In this document: positions 10,079 through 40,775 of the stretch, one piece after another
Numbering within the stretch: the first letter of the stretch is position 1
How the letters are laid out: the number at the start of each line of letters is the position of its first letter
Source: Paludibacteraceae bacterium
GTDB taxonomy: Bacteria; Bacteroidota; Bacteroidia; Bacteroidales; Paludibacteraceae
Assembly (NCBI GenBank): GCA_017448345.1
Contig: JAFSLP010000027.1
Location: 1-53,205 of the forward strand
Direction: 5' to 3'
Length of the DNA: 53,205 nt
Notes under the pieces: model-generated
Database searches by the model: none
Told to the model about the DNA's origin: nothing
The model's input: only the letters and a program-made list of their open reading frames with translations
Made by a program: the position numbers and the translations under genes

Positions 10079-10104
10079 CTTTCAACTTTTAACATTCAAC
10101 TATC
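10079..10104 (-). repeat. Short repeat between metK and lspA
   Basis: TTTCAACTTTTAACATTCAA-type tandem repeat, the inverted-orientation relative of the tract at 6792. Its end runs into the metK stop codon (TCA at 10103-10105 on the + strand). Confidence 0.7.
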
Positions 10105-10774
10105 ATATTCCGAACGCCTTTTTCACTTCCTCCAAGCGGTCCAGTTTCTCCCATGTGAACAGTTCCACTTCGCGGGTGAAGGTATTGCCGTCGGCATCGA
10201 AGAAGGTCTTGGTGACGGTCTCGTTGGTTCTACCCATATGTCCGTAACGGGCGGTCTCTTCGTACATCGGTTGAGTCAGACGCAGGTCGCGTATGATAGC
10301 TGCCGGACGGAGGTCGAACAGCCGTGCCACCACTTGGGCTATCTCGGCATCGCTCATGTGGATACGTGCCGAGCCGTTGGTGTTGACATAGAGGGAGACA
10401 GGCTCCGCCACGCCGATAGCATAACTGACTTGCACCAGCGCCTCATGTGCCACGCCTGCCGCCACCAAGTGTTTGGCTATCCACCGTGCCGCATAAGCCG
10501 CAGAACGGTCCACTTTGGAGGGGTCCTTGCCGGAGAATGCGCCGCCTCCGTGGGCACCGCGTCCGCCGTAGGTGTCCACGATAATCTTTCGTCCCGTCAG
10601 ACCGGTGTCGCCGTGAGGACCGCCGATGACGAAGTTCCCTGTCGGGTTCACTAACAGTTTGGCGTTCTTGTCCTCAAGGAAGGCGTGGAGCAGATGGCCG
10701 TAGCGTGAGTCACGTCTTGCCACGCGGGGCAGCAGAATCTCAATCACATCCTTCTTAATGAGTTCTGGCGTCAC
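10103..10774 (-). CDS. metK: S-adenosylmethionine synthetase, C-terminal part (frame broken from N-terminal part)
   Basis: This frame codes the C-terminal two thirds of MetK, which makes S-adenosylmethionine from methionine and ATP. Seen: [55 protein letters not shown] and a C-terminal WEKLDRL. It is one frame behind the N-terminal part. The first usable codon, GTG at 10774, overlaps the N-terminal stop as GTGA, so coupled re-initiation giving a two-piece enzyme is conceivable. A real frameshift or a sequence error are the alternatives. The switch falls at the repeat tract 10780-10804. Confidence 0.85.
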
Positions 10775-11388
10775 CTTGATGCTTTCGACTTTTGACTTAC
10801 GACTGTAGTCTCGTCATGCTGAGTGGACAGGACGATGGTGTCAATGCGCACGGGACGGTTCTGCGCATCATATTCGATGGTCACTTGGCTTTTGCTGTCA
10901 GGGCGGAGATAGGTCATCTCTTTGCCTTCTTTGCGAATCCGCGCAAGGGTATATACCAAGGTGTGTGCAAGGTCCAGCGTCAGGGGCATGAAGTTATCCG
11001 TCTCATCGGTGGCATAGCCGAACATCATGCCTTGGTCGCCTGCGCCCTGTTCGTCTTCCGTAGCACGGCTGACGCCCATGTTGATGTCTTGTGACTGGGC
11101 GTGAAGCGCAGTGAGGATGCCGCAACTCTCCGCCTCGAACTTGTACTCGGCTTTGGTGTAACCGATTTCAGCAATGGTCCTGCGGGCAATCTGCTGGATG
11201 TCCACCCAGCCTTTGCAACTGACCTCACCGGCGATGACAACCTGTCCGGTGGTGCACAGCGTCTCACATGCCACATGTGCTTGCGCGTCCTGCGCGAGCA
11301 TATTATCAAGTATCGCGTCCGAAATCTGGTCGCTCACTTTGTCCGGGTGTCCTTCCGACACCGATTCTGAAGTAAATAAATAATGCAT
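10771..11388 (-). CDS. metK: S-adenosylmethionine synthetase, N-terminal part (truncated by frame break)
   Basis: N-terminal domain of MetK, starting [20 protein letters not shown] at 11388. An earlier in-frame ATG at 11403 lies inside a repeat and is less likely. The methionine/ATP site motif [13 protein letters not shown], the [10 protein letters not shown] segment and [13 protein letters not shown] are all present. The frame runs through [11 protein letters not shown], then through a repeat-derived stretch ([10 protein letters not shown]), and hits TGA at 10771-10773. In the -1 frame the family sequence resumes at once ([18 protein letters not shown]). Only one metK is present in this window, so function depends on how this break is resolved. 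Confidence 0.85.
10780..10804 (-). repeat. Short repeat at the metK frame break
   Basis: Read on the minus strand, this is a run of AGTC(G/A)AAAG-type units, the same family as the tracts at 21767-21799 inside pdxA and 39124-39176 after the RNase G gene. The MetK reading frame shifts exactly across it. Confidence 0.8.
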
Positions 11389-11389
11389 A

Positions 11390-11426
11390 AAGTCATTTAC
11401 CATTTAGTCATTTACCATTTACAATT
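11390..11426 (-). repeat. AAATGGTAAATGAC repeat in the metK leader
   Basis: About 2.5 units of a 14-15 bp repeat lie directly upstream of the metK start at 11388. It is the same family as the long tract inside the DUF2520 gene (34461-34570). One unit supplies an extra in-frame ATG at 11403. Confidence 0.8.
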
Positions 11427-11430
11427 TGGT

Positions 11431-11466
11431 AAAAAAATAACCGCAAGCGACTGTTTGGTCTTGCGG
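11431..11466 (-). terminator. Terminator-like hairpin in the metK leader (possible attenuator)
   Basis: On the minus strand CCGCAAG (11460-11466) and CTTGCGG (11441-11447) form a stem followed by TTATTTTTTT. It lies between the metK promoter (11546-11576) and the metK start, so it would stop leader transcription unless disrupted. An upstream leader segment containing GCTTGCAACC could pair with the first arm, a possible antiterminator. This is inference from sequence; no known SAM riboswitch consensus was recognised. Confidence 0.5.
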
Positions 11467-11545
11467 CACAAGTTTTAGCATTGTTTTTAAGAGGTTGCAA
11501 GCAGTCAAATCCATCCTCTTTAGCACCGATTGTACTTTCCGAGTG

Positions 11546-20940: not shown

Positions 20941-21207
20941 TTGCATATATGCAATTTTTTTTGTACCTTCGGTCCTCCCTACTAAAGCAGGGTCCCACCG
21001 AAAGTACGTTCGCGTCCTGCCGGGCATATGCAAAGGGGAAGGGATTTTTTTGCAAAAGGGCACAGCCCTGTATTTAAGTGCAGTTATCAGCCGTCTTATG
21101 CAAGCATAGCCGTCCGATAACCGCCCATAAATAGTAGTGAAAAACACTACTTTTTGCAAAAAAAATCCCTTTCCCCTTGCGTATGTGCAAAATTTGTAGT
21201 ACCTTTG
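20941..21207 (+). other. Two-promoter hairpin element, copy 1 (upstream of pdxA)
   Basis: Begins with a promoter-like TTG (20941-20943)-20 nt-TACCTTCG (20954-20961). The -7 box is the first arm of a hairpin (20953-20963 with 20997-21007). Next is GTTCG and TCCTGC, then a long inverted repeat: left arm 21025-21056, right arm 21151-21185, enclosing a GGGC-ACA-GCCC hairpin and an AGTAGTG...CACTACT hairpin. It ends in a full promoter, TTG (21177-21179)-20 nt-TACCTTTG (21200-21207), 106 nt before pdxA. The same architecture is repeated at 40503-40775 on the minus strand. Confidence 0.7.
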
Positions 21208-21313: not shown

Positions 21314-22540
21314 ATGAGCAAACCAATAGTAGCCATTACCGCCGGTGACACCAACGGAGTGGGATATGAAGTCATCATCAAAGCGCTGTTAGAGTCGCAT
21401 ATGTTCGAGATCTGCAAACCCGTGATATACGGCAATGCAGCCGTAGCCCGGCAACATATCCAGACCTTGGGCGAAGAATATCACAACGTGACATGGAACA
21501 CGATAGACGACGCCTCGCAAGCCAAAGACGGTCGTCTGAACCTCATCACCTGTTACGCGGACAATCTGCCCGTGCAGTTCGGCATTCCGACGCCGGACGC
21601 CAACAAAGCCGCCAAGGCATCGCTGGAACGCGCCTGCCGCGACCTGAAAGAAGGCAAGGTACACGCATTAGTGACTGCGCCGCTGAACAAAGAAGCCCTG
21701 AATGAAGGACCAAAGGACCAAGCGTCAACTACCAAAGGGCATACCGAGTACATGGAAGAACGGTTTAAAGTCGAAAGTCAAAAGTCAAAAGCCGAAAGCA
21801 GTCTGATGATGCTTTGTTCGGGTGCGCTGCGCGTGGCGCTTGTATGCAACCATGTGGCGCTGGCGGACATCCCTGCACAGATAACGGAGGAGAACATCCT
21901 TGCCAAACTGACGGTGCTCAACCGGTCTCTTATCCGTGATTTCGGGTTGGAGAAACCGCGTATCGCCGTTCTTGCGCTCAATCCGCATGCCGGCGATGCC
22001 GGTCTGCTGGGCAAAGAGGAGCAGGAGATTATCGCTCCGGCTGTTGCCAAAGCCCGCGAACAGGGGTTGTGGGTGTTCGGTCCGTACGCCTCCGACGGGT
22101 TCTTCGGGTCCGGTCAGTTCGGGCATTTCGATGCCGTACTCGCCATGTATCACGACCAAGGTCTGATACCGTTCAAGACCTTGGACATGTCCGGTGTGAA
22201 CTATACGGCAGGTCTGAGCATCGTGCGGACCTCTCCTGACCATGGCACCGGTTATGACATCGCCGGCAAGAACCAAGCCGACCCGGCATCCATGCGCAAT
22301 GCCATCTACATGGCGATAGACGTTCTGCGCACGCGCAACGAGTATGACAGCCTGCGCGCCAACCCGCTGCCGTTCATCGAGCGCGAGGACAAAGAAGGCA
22401 GACCACGCCGCGAGTTCATCGATTTCAAGACCACTACCGGCGGCAACAGGTTTAATAATGTACAAGGGGACAATGTACAAAGTACAAAGGATAATGTACA
22501 AGGGGACAATGTACAAAGTACAAAGGAACAAAACGCATAA
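21314..22540 (+). CDS. pdxA: 4-hydroxythreonine-4-phosphate dehydrogenase
   Basis: NAD-dependent step of pyridoxal-phosphate synthesis, acting on 4-phosphohydroxy-L-threonine. Seen: [21 protein letters not shown] at the start, [13 protein letters not shown] near 117, [11 protein letters not shown] near 140, [17 protein letters not shown] near 272 (metal-binding His) and [18 protein letters not shown] near 305. At 408 residues it is longer than usual. A seven-residue insertion near 152-163 comes from an AAAGTC-type repeat, and the last ~28 residues come from a 36-bp repeat. Both are in frame. alaS follows after 16 nt. Confidence 0.95.
21767..21799 (+). repeat. AAAGTC-type repeat inside pdxA
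   Basis: About four units of AAAGTCGAAAGTCAAAAGTC character, in frame, adding residues between EERF and SLMML where other PdxA proteins have a short turn. Same family as 10780-10804 and 39124-39176. Confidence 0.85.
22455..22526 (+). repeat. 36-bp tandem repeat at the 3' end of pdxA
   Basis: Two identical 36-bp units (22455-22490, 22491-22526), each made of GTACAAAG/GTACAAGGGG-type subunits, coding [11 protein letters not shown] twice. The same family is found inside alaS at 24096-24126. Confidence 0.9.
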
Positions 22541-32475: not shown

Positions 32476-32518
32476 TTGCATATTTCAAAAAAATGTCGTA
32501 CCTTTGCAGCCGCAAAGG
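32476..32518 (+). promoter_or_regulatory. Promoter and palindromic operator of the second MNT/HEPN pair
   Basis: TTG 32476-32478, 20 nt, TACCTTTG 32499-32506; palindrome CCTTTGC-agcc-GCAAAGG at 32501-32518, 9 nt before the start codon. Same design as at 19331-19373. Confidence 0.75.
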
Positions 32519-32527
32519 TTAGAATGT

Positions 32528-32848
32528 ATGGAATCAAAGAACGACATATTAAAACAGATTACTGATCTTGGGAAAAGAGTTCTTCCTGAGAACAGCCGTT
32601 TGGTGCTCTATGGTTCCCGTGCACGGGGAGACAGCCATGCAGACTCTGACTGGGACTTGCTGGTCTTGGTTGATAAAGACAAACAGCAATTGCAGGATTT
32701 CGACCATTATGCGTATCCGTTCATTGAGATGGGCTGGAATATGGGTGCTGAAATTAATCCCATGCTTTATACGCGTTCGGAATGGGAAAAACGCCATTCC
32801 ACACCGTTCTATCATAATGTGGAAGAAGACAAAATTGTATTAGTATGA
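32528..32848 (+). CDS. MNT-type nucleotidyltransferase (antitoxin-like)
   Basis: 106 residues: LVLYGSRARGDSHADSDWDLLVLV near 25-48 is the minimal nucleotidyltransferase signature (GSRARG...DSDWD). The start at 32528 (MESKNDILKQ) is chosen over an out-of-frame ATG at 32524. Its stop overlaps the HEPN gene's start as ATGA. Likely the antitoxin/modifier of the HEPN protein, by analogy with MNT/HEPN systems. Confidence 0.85.
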   Translation: MESKNDILKQITDLGKRVLPENSRLVLYGSRARGDSHADSDWDLLVLVDKDKQQLQDFDHYAYPFIEMGWNMGAEINPMLYTRSEWEKRHSTPFYHNVEEDKIVLV

Positions 32849-33243
32849 GTTTGTCGAATGAAGATAAAAATGTGTTGGTTCAATTGCATTTGGAAAAAGC
32901 GCATTCATGCCTTGCTGATGGAGAGCAGTTATTGAATATGAATTCAGTCTCCGCAGCGGCGAATCGTTTTTACTATGCTGTTTTTCATGCTATCCATGCT
33001 TTGTTTGTAAAAAACGGAATCATTACCAAGTCTCATCATGGTACCAATGCACAGTTCCATCAGCAATTTATCAAAACAGGCATCATAGACCCTAAATACG
33101 GACATTTTATTGCCGTGATGGAGAATATGCGTGAAAAGGCGGACTATGATGTCATTTATGATGTCTCGCGGGAAGATTTGGAGGCATTGAAACCAATAGC
33201 ATATGACTTAATCAAAACCATTGAGCAATTGCTTATTGTCTAA
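32845..33243 (+). CDS. HEPN domain protein (toxin-like partner of MNT)
   Basis: 132 residues with the HEPN pattern of PF05168-type proteins: LHLEKAHSCLADGEQLL, then NRFYYAVFHAIHALFVKNGI containing Rx6H (R-FYYAVF-H), and a helical C-terminus. Unlike the first pair's HepT it lacks the RxxxxHxY form. It overlaps the MNT gene by four bases. Function as an RNase toxin is inferred from the pairing and the Rx6H motif. Confidence 0.85.
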   Translation: MSLSNEDKNVLVQLHLEKAHSCLADGEQLLNMNSVSAAANRFYYAVFHAIHALFVKNGIITKSHHGTNAQFHQQFIKTGIIDPKYGHFIAVMENMREKADYDVIYDVSREDLEALKPIAYDLIKTIEQLLIV

Positions 33244-39703: not shown

Positions 39704-40471
39704 TTATTCTATCGTCAGTTTCGCTGAGCAGCAGGTCTCGCCGTTTTCGTTTTTCTGCTGGTATTGCACACCGTCCGGAGCGATGAGGAAATAAGTCAGC
39801 AGCTCCTCGTCAAGCATCGCTTCCTTCTGGTAGTTGATGTCCAGCCGGAGGCGTTTGCCGTAGTAATCGGGCAGGTGGGTGTCGGTCATCGCCTGCAGGT
39901 AGCGGCAGGAGTTGCAATGTCCGTTGTAGTCGATGTCCGAATAGGCGACTTTGTGCGGCAGGCAACCGGTAGGTTCGGGGATGGTGGTCATCCGCACGCG
40001 CGGCATGTCAATCATCTCGCCGTCCACACAGCCCTCAAACATCGGATTGTCGAAGATATTGACAATCTCGCGTTTCTCCAAGTCCATGACCGCCCAGACG
40101 GACTTGCACTGACCTATCAGCACCCAGTCGTCCGCTTTCGTACTCCGGCGTATTCCGGATTGCTCTCCGGCACTGTCCGGCTCCAAGGCATAGATGCGGA
40201 AATCACGCGTGCTGAGCATGTGCGCGTTGGACTCGATCCATGTCTCAAACCGCACACTCTGCCCGTGTGTGGGCAGTTGGTACATCTCCACGGAGAGACG
40301 CGTGAGAATCCATGTCAGCCCTTGCGGATGGAGCCGGGCAATACCGAAACCCAGTTGGTCCGCCACTGTGCCGGCTACCTCCAGCAGGTAGTTCTCCAGA
40401 TTGAACAGACGCAGTTTCTTCTGCGCGTCCACTTCCTGATATTTGATTATGTATTCGTAGTTATATTTCAT
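39704..40471 (-). CDS. Acyl-ACP thioesterase
   Basis: Releases fatty acids from acyl carrier protein. 255 residues with two hot-dog folds, as in FatA-type thioesterases. Seen: the first hot-dog KYQEVDAQKKLRLFNLENYLLEVAG and GLTWILTRLSVEM, VWAVMDLEKREIVNIFDNP, and the second hot-dog with YSDIDYNGHCNSCRYLQAMTD, where the Asn-x-His and Cys/Glu catalytic region lies. Expressed from the downstream promoter of the element 40503-40775, with a ~30 nt leader. Confidence 0.88.
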   Translation of the reverse strand: MKYNYEYIIKYQEVDAQKKLRLFNLENYLLEVAGTVADQLGFGIARLHPQGLTWILTRLSVEMYQLPTHGQSVRFETWIESNAHMLSTRDFRIYALEPDSAGEQSGIRRSTKADDWVLIGQCKSVWAVMDLEKREIVNIFDNPMFEGCVDGEMIDMPRVRMTTIPEPTGCLPHKVAYSDIDYNGHCNSCRYLQAMTDTHLPDYYGKRLRLDINYQKEAMLDEELLTYFLIAPDGVQYQQKNENGETCCSAKLTIE

Positions 40472-40502: not shown

Positions 40503-40775
40503 CAAAGGTACTACAAAAATTGCACATATGCAAGGGGAAAGGGATTTTTTTGCTAAAAGTAGAGATTTTTCTCTATGTTTTTTAGTGAACGGATGGCTAT
40601 TGGGAGCTTGCTCACGAATAGTCATGCGGGCACTAAAAAGGAAGGGCTCTGCCCTTTTGGCAAAAAAAACCTTTTCCCTCGCATATGCACCGCAGGAAAC
40701 GAACGTACTTTCGAGGTGAGACGGCAAAGCCGTGTCGGTGCCCTCGAAGGTACTACTTTTTTTTGAATTATGCAA
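40503..40775 (-). other. Two-promoter hairpin element, copy 2 (upstream of the acyl-ACP thioesterase gene)
   Basis: Minus-strand order: promoter 1, TTG 40773-40775, 20 nt, TACCTTCG 40745-40752; hairpin 40742-40753 with 40705-40716; TCCTGC; inverted-repeat arm 40659-40687; GGGC-AGA-GCCC hairpin; a middle with GGCTATT...AATAGTC and TAGAGA...TCTCTA stems; second arm 40525-40553; promoter 2, TTG 40531-40533, 20 nt, TACCTTTG 40503-40510. Ends and order match copy 1 (20941-21207) closely; the middle differs. Confidence 0.7.

Follow-up and report, generated by a model that had tools for sequence, protein, structure and literature searches.

Elements derived from the IS200/IS605 family carry subterminal hairpins on one strand and insert strand-specifically beside a short motif with no clear target duplication, the core sites of integron attC sites read GTTRRRY / RYYYAAC, and the target duplicated by the Correia elements (CREE) of Neisseria is TA. 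Background on the IS200/IS605 family is given in PMC6006769. CREE are mostly 153-157 or 104-108 bp long, end in inverted repeats, duplicate their target, disrupt coding sequences too, and provide a distal promoter (-35 from the host, -10 from the element) and a proximal promoter (-35 from the element, -10 completed upon insertion); their mobilising mechanism was not determined in that account (PMC2649163). REP and REPIN sequences are non-autonomous, show compensatory changes in their hairpins and are thought to be moved by a transposase that processes single strands (PMC3116915, PMC6006769). The MITE BrickBuilt of Porphyromonas gingivalis, which has terminal inverted repeats and a 23-nt direct repeat, showed promoter activity in an E. 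coli reporter assay (PMC4596501). In Bacteroidota the consensus of the -7 promoter box is TAnnTTTG and that of the -33 box TTTG (PMC7366714).

The stretch of DNA analysed here (the window, 53,205 nucleotides from a Paludibacteraceae bacterium) contains two copies of an element that appears to work like a Correia element, although it is not one. Both are small, dispersed repeats without an ORF, and the same logic of two half-promoters can be read at the sequence level, but the element in the window is about 1.5-2.3 times longer, has no terminal inverted repeats, has a stem that closes on three covarying hairpins and is strongly biased to promoters in one orientation, whereas CREE also hit coding sequence. 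With REP/REPIN sequences it shares the non-autonomous state and the compensatory hairpin changes, and its ends carry GTAG or GTTG; REPs, however, are hairpins of 21-65 nt whose foot carries GT[AG]G and which often adjoin a transposase gene, whereas here we found a compound fold of 220-260 bp plus a promoter half and no link to a transposase. Like BrickBuilt it is an intergenic multi-copy element of Bacteroidales species, though BrickBuilt has the terminal and direct repeats mentioned above; the BrickBuilt terminal repeat CCGAAAGGTCTC and an arm of our left hairpin (CCGAAAGTAC) have seven letters in common (CCGAAAG), possibly by chance. The IS200/IS605-derived elements appear similar in the features listed above, but no autonomous relative with the ends of the window element was found. 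It is short, multi-copy and without a transposase ORF, as a DDE-type MITE would be, but without the terminal inverted repeats; of the suggestion in the initial annotation of a MITE that brings its own promoter, the mobility and the part of a promoter are supported. The ends of the element (GTWGTAN) do not agree with the core sites of integron attC. The element is real, and is probably a novel form of the small mobile elements that carry promoter sequence, unusual in its target preference.

Architecture of the element

The initial annotation had described one arrangement of parts, in the same orientation to the next gene, upstream of pdxA and of an acyl-ACP thioesterase gene, and direct reading bore out both copies and their parts, and family matches the identity of both genes (Table 1). 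The extent had to be trimmed, since the first ~25 bases (20941-20965) lie outside the element and are most likely host promoter. This stretch most likely existed before the insertion, because at least 15 further places in the genome match query positions 1-29 or 5-29 alone (blastn, own genome). Two sites in other genomes, one of them empty and the other at nagB (see below), served to place the edges of copy 1, with an uncertainty of a few bp due to GTA microhomology.

Table 1. Parts of the two element copies and adjoining host features in the window.
Feature	Position	Strand	Remark
Element copy 1, 236 bp	20966..21201	+	Between host GTA and host CCTTTG; edges inferred
Left host half-promoter, copy 1	20941..20965	+	-33 TTG, spacer, GTA; host sequence, outside the element
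Left hairpin H1 (GTACCTTCGG ... CCGAAAGTAC)	20963..21007	+	5' foot is the TACCTTCG box; kept in copies inspected
Conserved linker GTTCGCGTCCTGCCGG, H1 to P1	21008..21023	+	33 copies
Outer stem P1, 5' arm	21025..21057	+	Fold; arm-swap test
Hairpin H2 (GGGC...GCCC)	21058..21068	+	Fold, covariation
Long hairpin H3, conserved tip TTATGCAAGCATA	21069..21131	+	Fold, arm swap, covariation
Hairpin H4 (AGTAGTG...CACTACT)	21133..21151	+	Fold, covariation
Outer stem P1, 3' arm	21152..21185	+	Foot TTGCGTATG doubles as -33 region of gene-proximal promoter
Gene-proximal promoter	21177..21207	+	-33 is the element's, CCTTTG the host's
pdxA, host gene behind the putatively regenerated promoter	21314..22540	+	TIGR00557, E 8e-105
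Element copy 2, 242 bp	about 40509..40750	-	Sequence reading, blastn, fold
Copy 2 body P1-H2-H3-H4	40525..40687	-	Fold and alignment
Left host half-promoter, copy 2	40751..40775	-	Read from sequence
Host CCTTTG (-7) completing thioesterase promoter	40503..40508	-	Copy 2
Acyl-ACP thioesterase, host gene	39704..40471	-	PF01643, E 2.5e-20

On the gene strand the order of parts is the host -33 box and spacer, GTA, a box ending in TTCG that forms the foot of H1, the linker (GTTCGCGTCCTGCSGG), the 5' arm of P1, H2, H3 (with tip TTATGCAAGCATA or GTGAGCAAGCTCCC), H4 and the 3' arm of P1, after which the right end typically reads TTGCATATGTGCAATTTTTGTWGTA followed by host NNTTTG. Both window copies begin inside a host promoter and finish at GTA followed by CCTTTG, and the length across the family is about 220-260 bp. 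Read on one strand, the element ends are GTA..TTCGG and ..TTTGTWGTA; the inverted arms are internal, and no terminal inverted repeats were found at the ends of the copies that we aligned and read. The arms reported before do pair, but the supposed nested hairpins are in fact one outer stem that closes on three hairpins, with a separate hairpin to the left.

Elsewhere in the window we found a SAM-II riboswitch (11465-11524, minus strand, 63 bits, above gathering) just 5' of metK-like sequence on the minus strand, which by eye appears to be split into two frames that overlap (10771-11403 and 10103-10774). A second repeat (..ACTACGCYGGGTGCGAGGTCTTTTTGGACAA) was seen by eye ~110 bp before the element at the unrelated loci L004 and L006 of the own genome and partly at L013.

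Copy number and distribution

The element had been reported as present twice, a count that was far too low: a model built from 33 copies gave 18 matches at E <= 1e-5 in the own 2.5-Mb genome (among the copies inspected eight were full-length, one was internally deleted and several were short 3' halves), and blastn with copy 1 also returned additional full-length copies there. We found matches in 31 of 61 genomes, all of one genus (the own genome plus 30 of its 36 further members; none of 24 genomes from other families), and the model of 33 copies matched 80 of the 111 genomes of the genus. In the order-wide search only 2 of 295 genomes (183 genera) matched, both of this genus; distant relatives could be missed there because scoring was limited to the 8 top candidates of each genome. 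An exact pattern occurred in 110 stretches across 84,980 species genomes, and all 80 of these with titles listed were named Bacteroidales or Paludibacteraceae, the titles that name a host naming ruminants. No element was found in the viral contigs searched with the exact pattern or in the phages and plasmids searched by blastn with copy 1. As far as tested, the family is confined to one genus of the Bacteroidales.

Near-identical bodies occurred at unrelated loci (L004/L005 98.8%, L002/L003 94.1%) and across species (L018/L062 94.5%), with flanks that align globally at just 50-60%, a figure that has no shuffled control. Together with the many copies and one empty site this supports the earlier idea of a mobile cassette. 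The claim that the element was previously undescribed is supported in that it matches no described RNA family: Rfam, at gathering and at permissive thresholds, gave nothing over the element (two sub-threshold permissive hits were to a miRNA model and a snoRNA model), and in the accessible open-access literature on MITEs, intergenic repeats, mobile promoters and RAYT in Bacteroidetes/Bacteroidales no paper appears to describe the family. Rfam did find a cobalamin riboswitch in L091 (1471-1697), outside the element.

Conservation of the fold

Folded as RNA, the window copies reached z-scores of -8.4 (copy 1) and -8.2 (copy 2; 200 shuffles each), and the letters of the stems differ between copies while the pairing is retained. 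In the model-fitted alignment, which leans to its own structure and includes some weak matches, both partners vary in 66 of 67 pairs, 91% of the cells are paired vs 61% in shuffled data, and the covariation score is 0.50 vs 0.13 for shuffled and at most 0.06 for slid alignments. The underlying model (R2, 67 pairs) was built on five own-genome copies, and its alignment (A3) took in 150 of 177 matches, some of which were weak or were palindrome matches to the opposite strand. Filtering A3 left 79 rows in true orientation and 54 that were non-redundant, in which 92% of the cells pair vs 61% in column shuffles. Swapping the arms of P1 between copies raised the energy from -31.7 to -17.6 kcal/mol, the own arm beating the mean swap in 46 of 47 copies, and for H3 the energy went from -24.2 to -10.2 kcal/mol, the own arm being better in all of the 35 copies (out of 47) in which both halves were located.

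When a consensus fold was derived from an alignment by sequence only (A1), it had just 8 pairs because MAFFT misaligns the rewritten stems, and the model used for the genus and order searches (R1) is therefore almost a sequence profile. The strong covariation shows that the fold is kept by compensatory change and supports selection on structure, as the initial annotation had proposed.

Insertion sites

We found one clean pair of a filled and an empty site. The empty locus L256 (UBA4333) reads TTTTTTTTGTGTAATTTTGCAGCGC, whereas in the filled locus L239 (RUG225) 224 bp separates GTGTAA and TTTGCAG. The flanks are identical at 250 of 250 positions downstream and 58 of 60 upstream; upstream identity weakens past 60 bp (112 of 150 farther upstream). 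The insertion point lies inside a promoter, with the host -33 box on the left and the host TTTG on the right. The two letters that precede TTTG are AT in the empty and TC in the filled site, so the right cut may fall inside the -7 box. Both junctions have a GTA, as does the empty site, and this pair shows no TA duplication. A repeated promoter close to GGCACTTTTATTTGCAAGTGTCATTTTTTTTGTGTAATTTTGCAGCGCAAAAT occurs in several species before different sequences, for instance in L239 near 2000 and 3070 and, in similar form and on the reverse strand, in L184 near 1485 and L256 near 640.

In genome G087 the element starts directly behind nagB (...CTGTTGTA), and in G083 the same bases (...TTGTTGTA, then ATG) run into cysS, G002 and G004 looking alike (gene names by eye); this site has an additional GTA. 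The nagB-cysS insert of G087 is 4.6 kb, larger than the element, and by eye also holds a large gene of surface-protein type together with an MNT-HEPN-like pair. The element alone therefore did not create it, and only the left edge is informative. The window itself has a pair of MNT nucleotidyltransferase and HEPN-like genes (32504-33243, by eye), and a similar pair lies directly behind the G087 element (L350, 2507-3219, reverse strand).

Tandem copies join at the GTA of the preceding right end, i.e. in the right-end promoter. The left core of the element was also seen in tandem in L242, L246 and L231, with a spacing of 103, 85 and 129 bp, respectively.

Promoter halves and downstream genes

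A right -7 box was present in 124 of 126 copies, preceded in 122 of these by a correctly spaced TTG, and the right-end tetranucleotide was GTTG in 77, GTAG in 42 and GTCG in 5 of the 124. Left ends had a correctly spaced TTG in 58 of 108 copies vs 21 expected from shuffling, a count that leaves out the 18 of 126 copies without a recognisable left box. The 126 copies are distinct flanks over all loci, a set that overlaps with but differs from the 126 copies used for the strand comparison below; in both sets one MAG may enter twice (under a G handle and as a named record). The gene-proximal promoter appears to be composed of a -33 half from the element and a -7 half from the host. Rather than a promoter at each end, as initially proposed, there is a half-promoter at each end, and each promoter appears to be half host and half element; the distal one does have a box, but this reads TTCG where the -7 box of Bacteroidota has TTTG.

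Copies are mostly found in gene orientation immediately upstream of unrelated genes. A same-strand ORF of at least 100 aa begins within 260 nt (median 26 nt) in 73 of 87 copies (93 pattern-locus copies minus 6 without 400 nt of downstream sequence), vs 19 of 87 for ORFs that lead away from the left end in the opposite direction, insufficient upstream sequence being scored negative there. Two of the 14 copies without such an ORF precede another copy and several precede shorter ORFs (by eye). The copies in the placement and promoter-box counts were chosen by a profile that demands the right end, which favours intact promoters; of the left cores found without that condition 106 of 116 meet a right end within 406 bp (110 loci). 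A family search with ten chosen downstream genes named secA, ffh, lepA, metK, ychF, EF-G2, a YegS-type lipid kinase and two genes that are thioredoxin-like and GldE-like (these last two, secA and EF-G2 under the curated cut-off, with secA and EF-G2 cut by the locus end); one of the ten had no family match at 1e-20.

Proposed mechanism and search for a transposase

We consider it likely that the family consists of non-autonomous mobile elements of one genus that insert into promoters and regenerate them. Copies would have arisen by transposition, inserting beside GTA and in one orientation, with the -33 box of the host on one side and the TTTG of its -7 box on the other. The right end of the element would bring its own -33 region and GTWGTA, and the host TTTG would complete a new, presumably active promoter, so that the gene would retain a promoter and its old leader, while the old host -33 box would be left facing the TTCG box of the element. 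The transposing form would be the folded bottom strand, moved in trans as single-stranded DNA. It is a tentative possibility that this last step is handled by a putative HUH (Y1) nuclease of the IS200/REP type; such transposition would fit because of the insertion between boxes, the one orientation, the lack of terminal inverted repeats and of a clear duplication, and the folded single strand. With confidence close to, but short of, even, we further propose a new promoter-homing class, in which a folded bottom strand targets the spacer/-7 region, a half-promoter rebuilds the promoter and copies accumulate before essential genes, and for which the driving enzyme would be one that has so far been connected with no such element.

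No transposase bearing the element ends was found among 116 left cores in the 110 pattern-scan loci: of the 10 left cores without a right end in 406 bp three run into the end of their locus, and the remaining ones are followed by ORFs that look host-like (by eye). Larger, ORF-carrying versions were not seen across these 110 loci either. Shorter relatives, with a shorter and different middle, occur in L072, L075, L077, L081, L163 and L171 and have the left hairpin, a TTCGC-type start of the linker and the promoter end in common, which suggests that the left hairpin and the right end may be the parts needed for movement.

A REP/REPIN-like element mobilised by a resident RAYT (TnpA_REP) is an unlikely alternative. 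The Bacteroidetes TnpA subclass 2.6 is described as having 'atypical secondary structures' that are copied elsewhere in the genome (PMC6006769), RAYT-like genes are found by tblastn in 46 of 71 genomes of the genus, including G000 (in a separate search of 46 genus genomes PF01797 is above cut-off in 14, with no match in G000), and one copy of the element lies directly upstream of such a gene. However, presence of the gene is not associated with the element (36 of 46 genomes with RAYT-like genes have it vs 17 of 25 without, p 0.40, hand tally), and G004 (96% complete) and G021 have 8 and 11 element matches, respectively, and no RAYT-like match. An element part above 20 bits was found at just 2 of 42 transposase loci (L101-L142), namely L113 (85 bits for a left part) and L114 (24 bits for a right part), two loci that hold close relatives of one gene, and in the flanks of RAYT loci that we read no cognate RAYT gene was flanked by element copies. 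L113 and L114 gave the idea of an autonomous element of the form left half - RAYT - right half, which was rejected on the grounds that L113 is without the P1 3' arm and that the gene of G079 has no left half upstream of it. The RAYT-like gene of L090 / L113 (G022:C31; NF047646, E 8e-7, under the cut-off) has repeated in-frame QMPKG motifs and directly follows an element without the right arm.

Strand preference

Of 47 non-redundant copies, 39 have their better fold on the strand antisense to the gene (RNA parameters, p 1.5e-7); these 47 were left from 126 copies (33 + 93) after 79 had been dropped as redundant at 80% identity. The reverse complement was also the better folder in 30 of the 33 copies of the initial set, and in 27 of 33 and 20 of 24 copies at stricter redundancy cut-offs. 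The single mismatches of the gene strand, counted on a strand-neutral structure, were A-C (59), C-T (26), C-C (19), G-T (13) and others (16), and the first three of these are G-U, G-A and G-G on the opposite strand. In the model alignment, which was itself built on the antisense strand, an excess of G-U over A-C was clear in H3 (82 to 10) and P1 (73 to 40) and not clear in H4 (16 to 14) and H2 (10 to 5). Folding advantage and mismatch bias together imply that the bottom strand must fold, or is exposed and deaminated; such deamination could be an alternative source of the strand bias.

The better fold of the antisense strand and its tolerated mismatches would also be in line with transcription of that strand into a structured small RNA, the family then being an RNA gene that spread. 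We regard this as quite improbable. A promoter-like site on the antisense strand was found on the gene side in none of 126 copies (0.7 expected), which would favour single-stranded DNA over RNA, and with DNA folding parameters the preference is the same (42 of 47), so the strand bias is not evidence for RNA. The one-strand advantage is consistent with the one-strand hairpins of IS200/IS605, a likeness that neither demonstrates function nor separates DNA from RNA. An sRNA source as the purpose of the element is not supported.

Very improbable, too, is a cis-regulatory leader RNA (attenuator- or riboswitch-like) that would start at the distal promoter and run across the element as far as the gene. 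The surplus of left -33 boxes, folding at z about -8 and the mainly gene-oriented copies would agree with it, but the gene-strand RNA folds less well than its complement, the genes downstream are unrelated, there is no Rfam match, and the almost universal gene-proximal box would bypass the element. As candidate empty sites, 29 other pdxA loci were inspected, and none has the element within 480 nt before pdxA. Since a nitroreductase gene lies upstream in 26 of the 29, the promoter of that operon was compared instead, with a full element in G034, a copy with a degenerate left third in G079, and 24 of 26 loci without the element (L163 and L171 carrying short relatives). The leader GCACGCTAATTTGG is common to 13 of the nitroreductase-pdxA loci, whether the element is present or not. 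These observations speak against an attenuated tandem promoter as the purpose of the element.

Chance similarity around two ordinary promoters, which the ordinary promoter sequence of the outer 25 bases might have suggested, has a negligible probability and is already refuted by the further copies and the covariation, the absence of which the initial annotation had named as the result that would speak against the element.

Implications

The preferred reading, in which insertion into a promoter by a mobile element also restores one, looks from the letters like a way of landing in promoters without silencing the gene. If it is true, one genus carries elements that rewrite the promoter architecture before core genes while the host is spared, and the structure of these elements is under selection with their sequence almost free. 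Pairs of filled and empty sites would then be natural promoter insertions for testing the promoter tolerance of Bacteroidota, and the conserved H1, linker and right end would form a defined substrate with which to seek the mobilising enzyme. It would also be a warning that mobile DNA may lie behind intergenic hairpins that RNA searches turn up in Bacteroidales.
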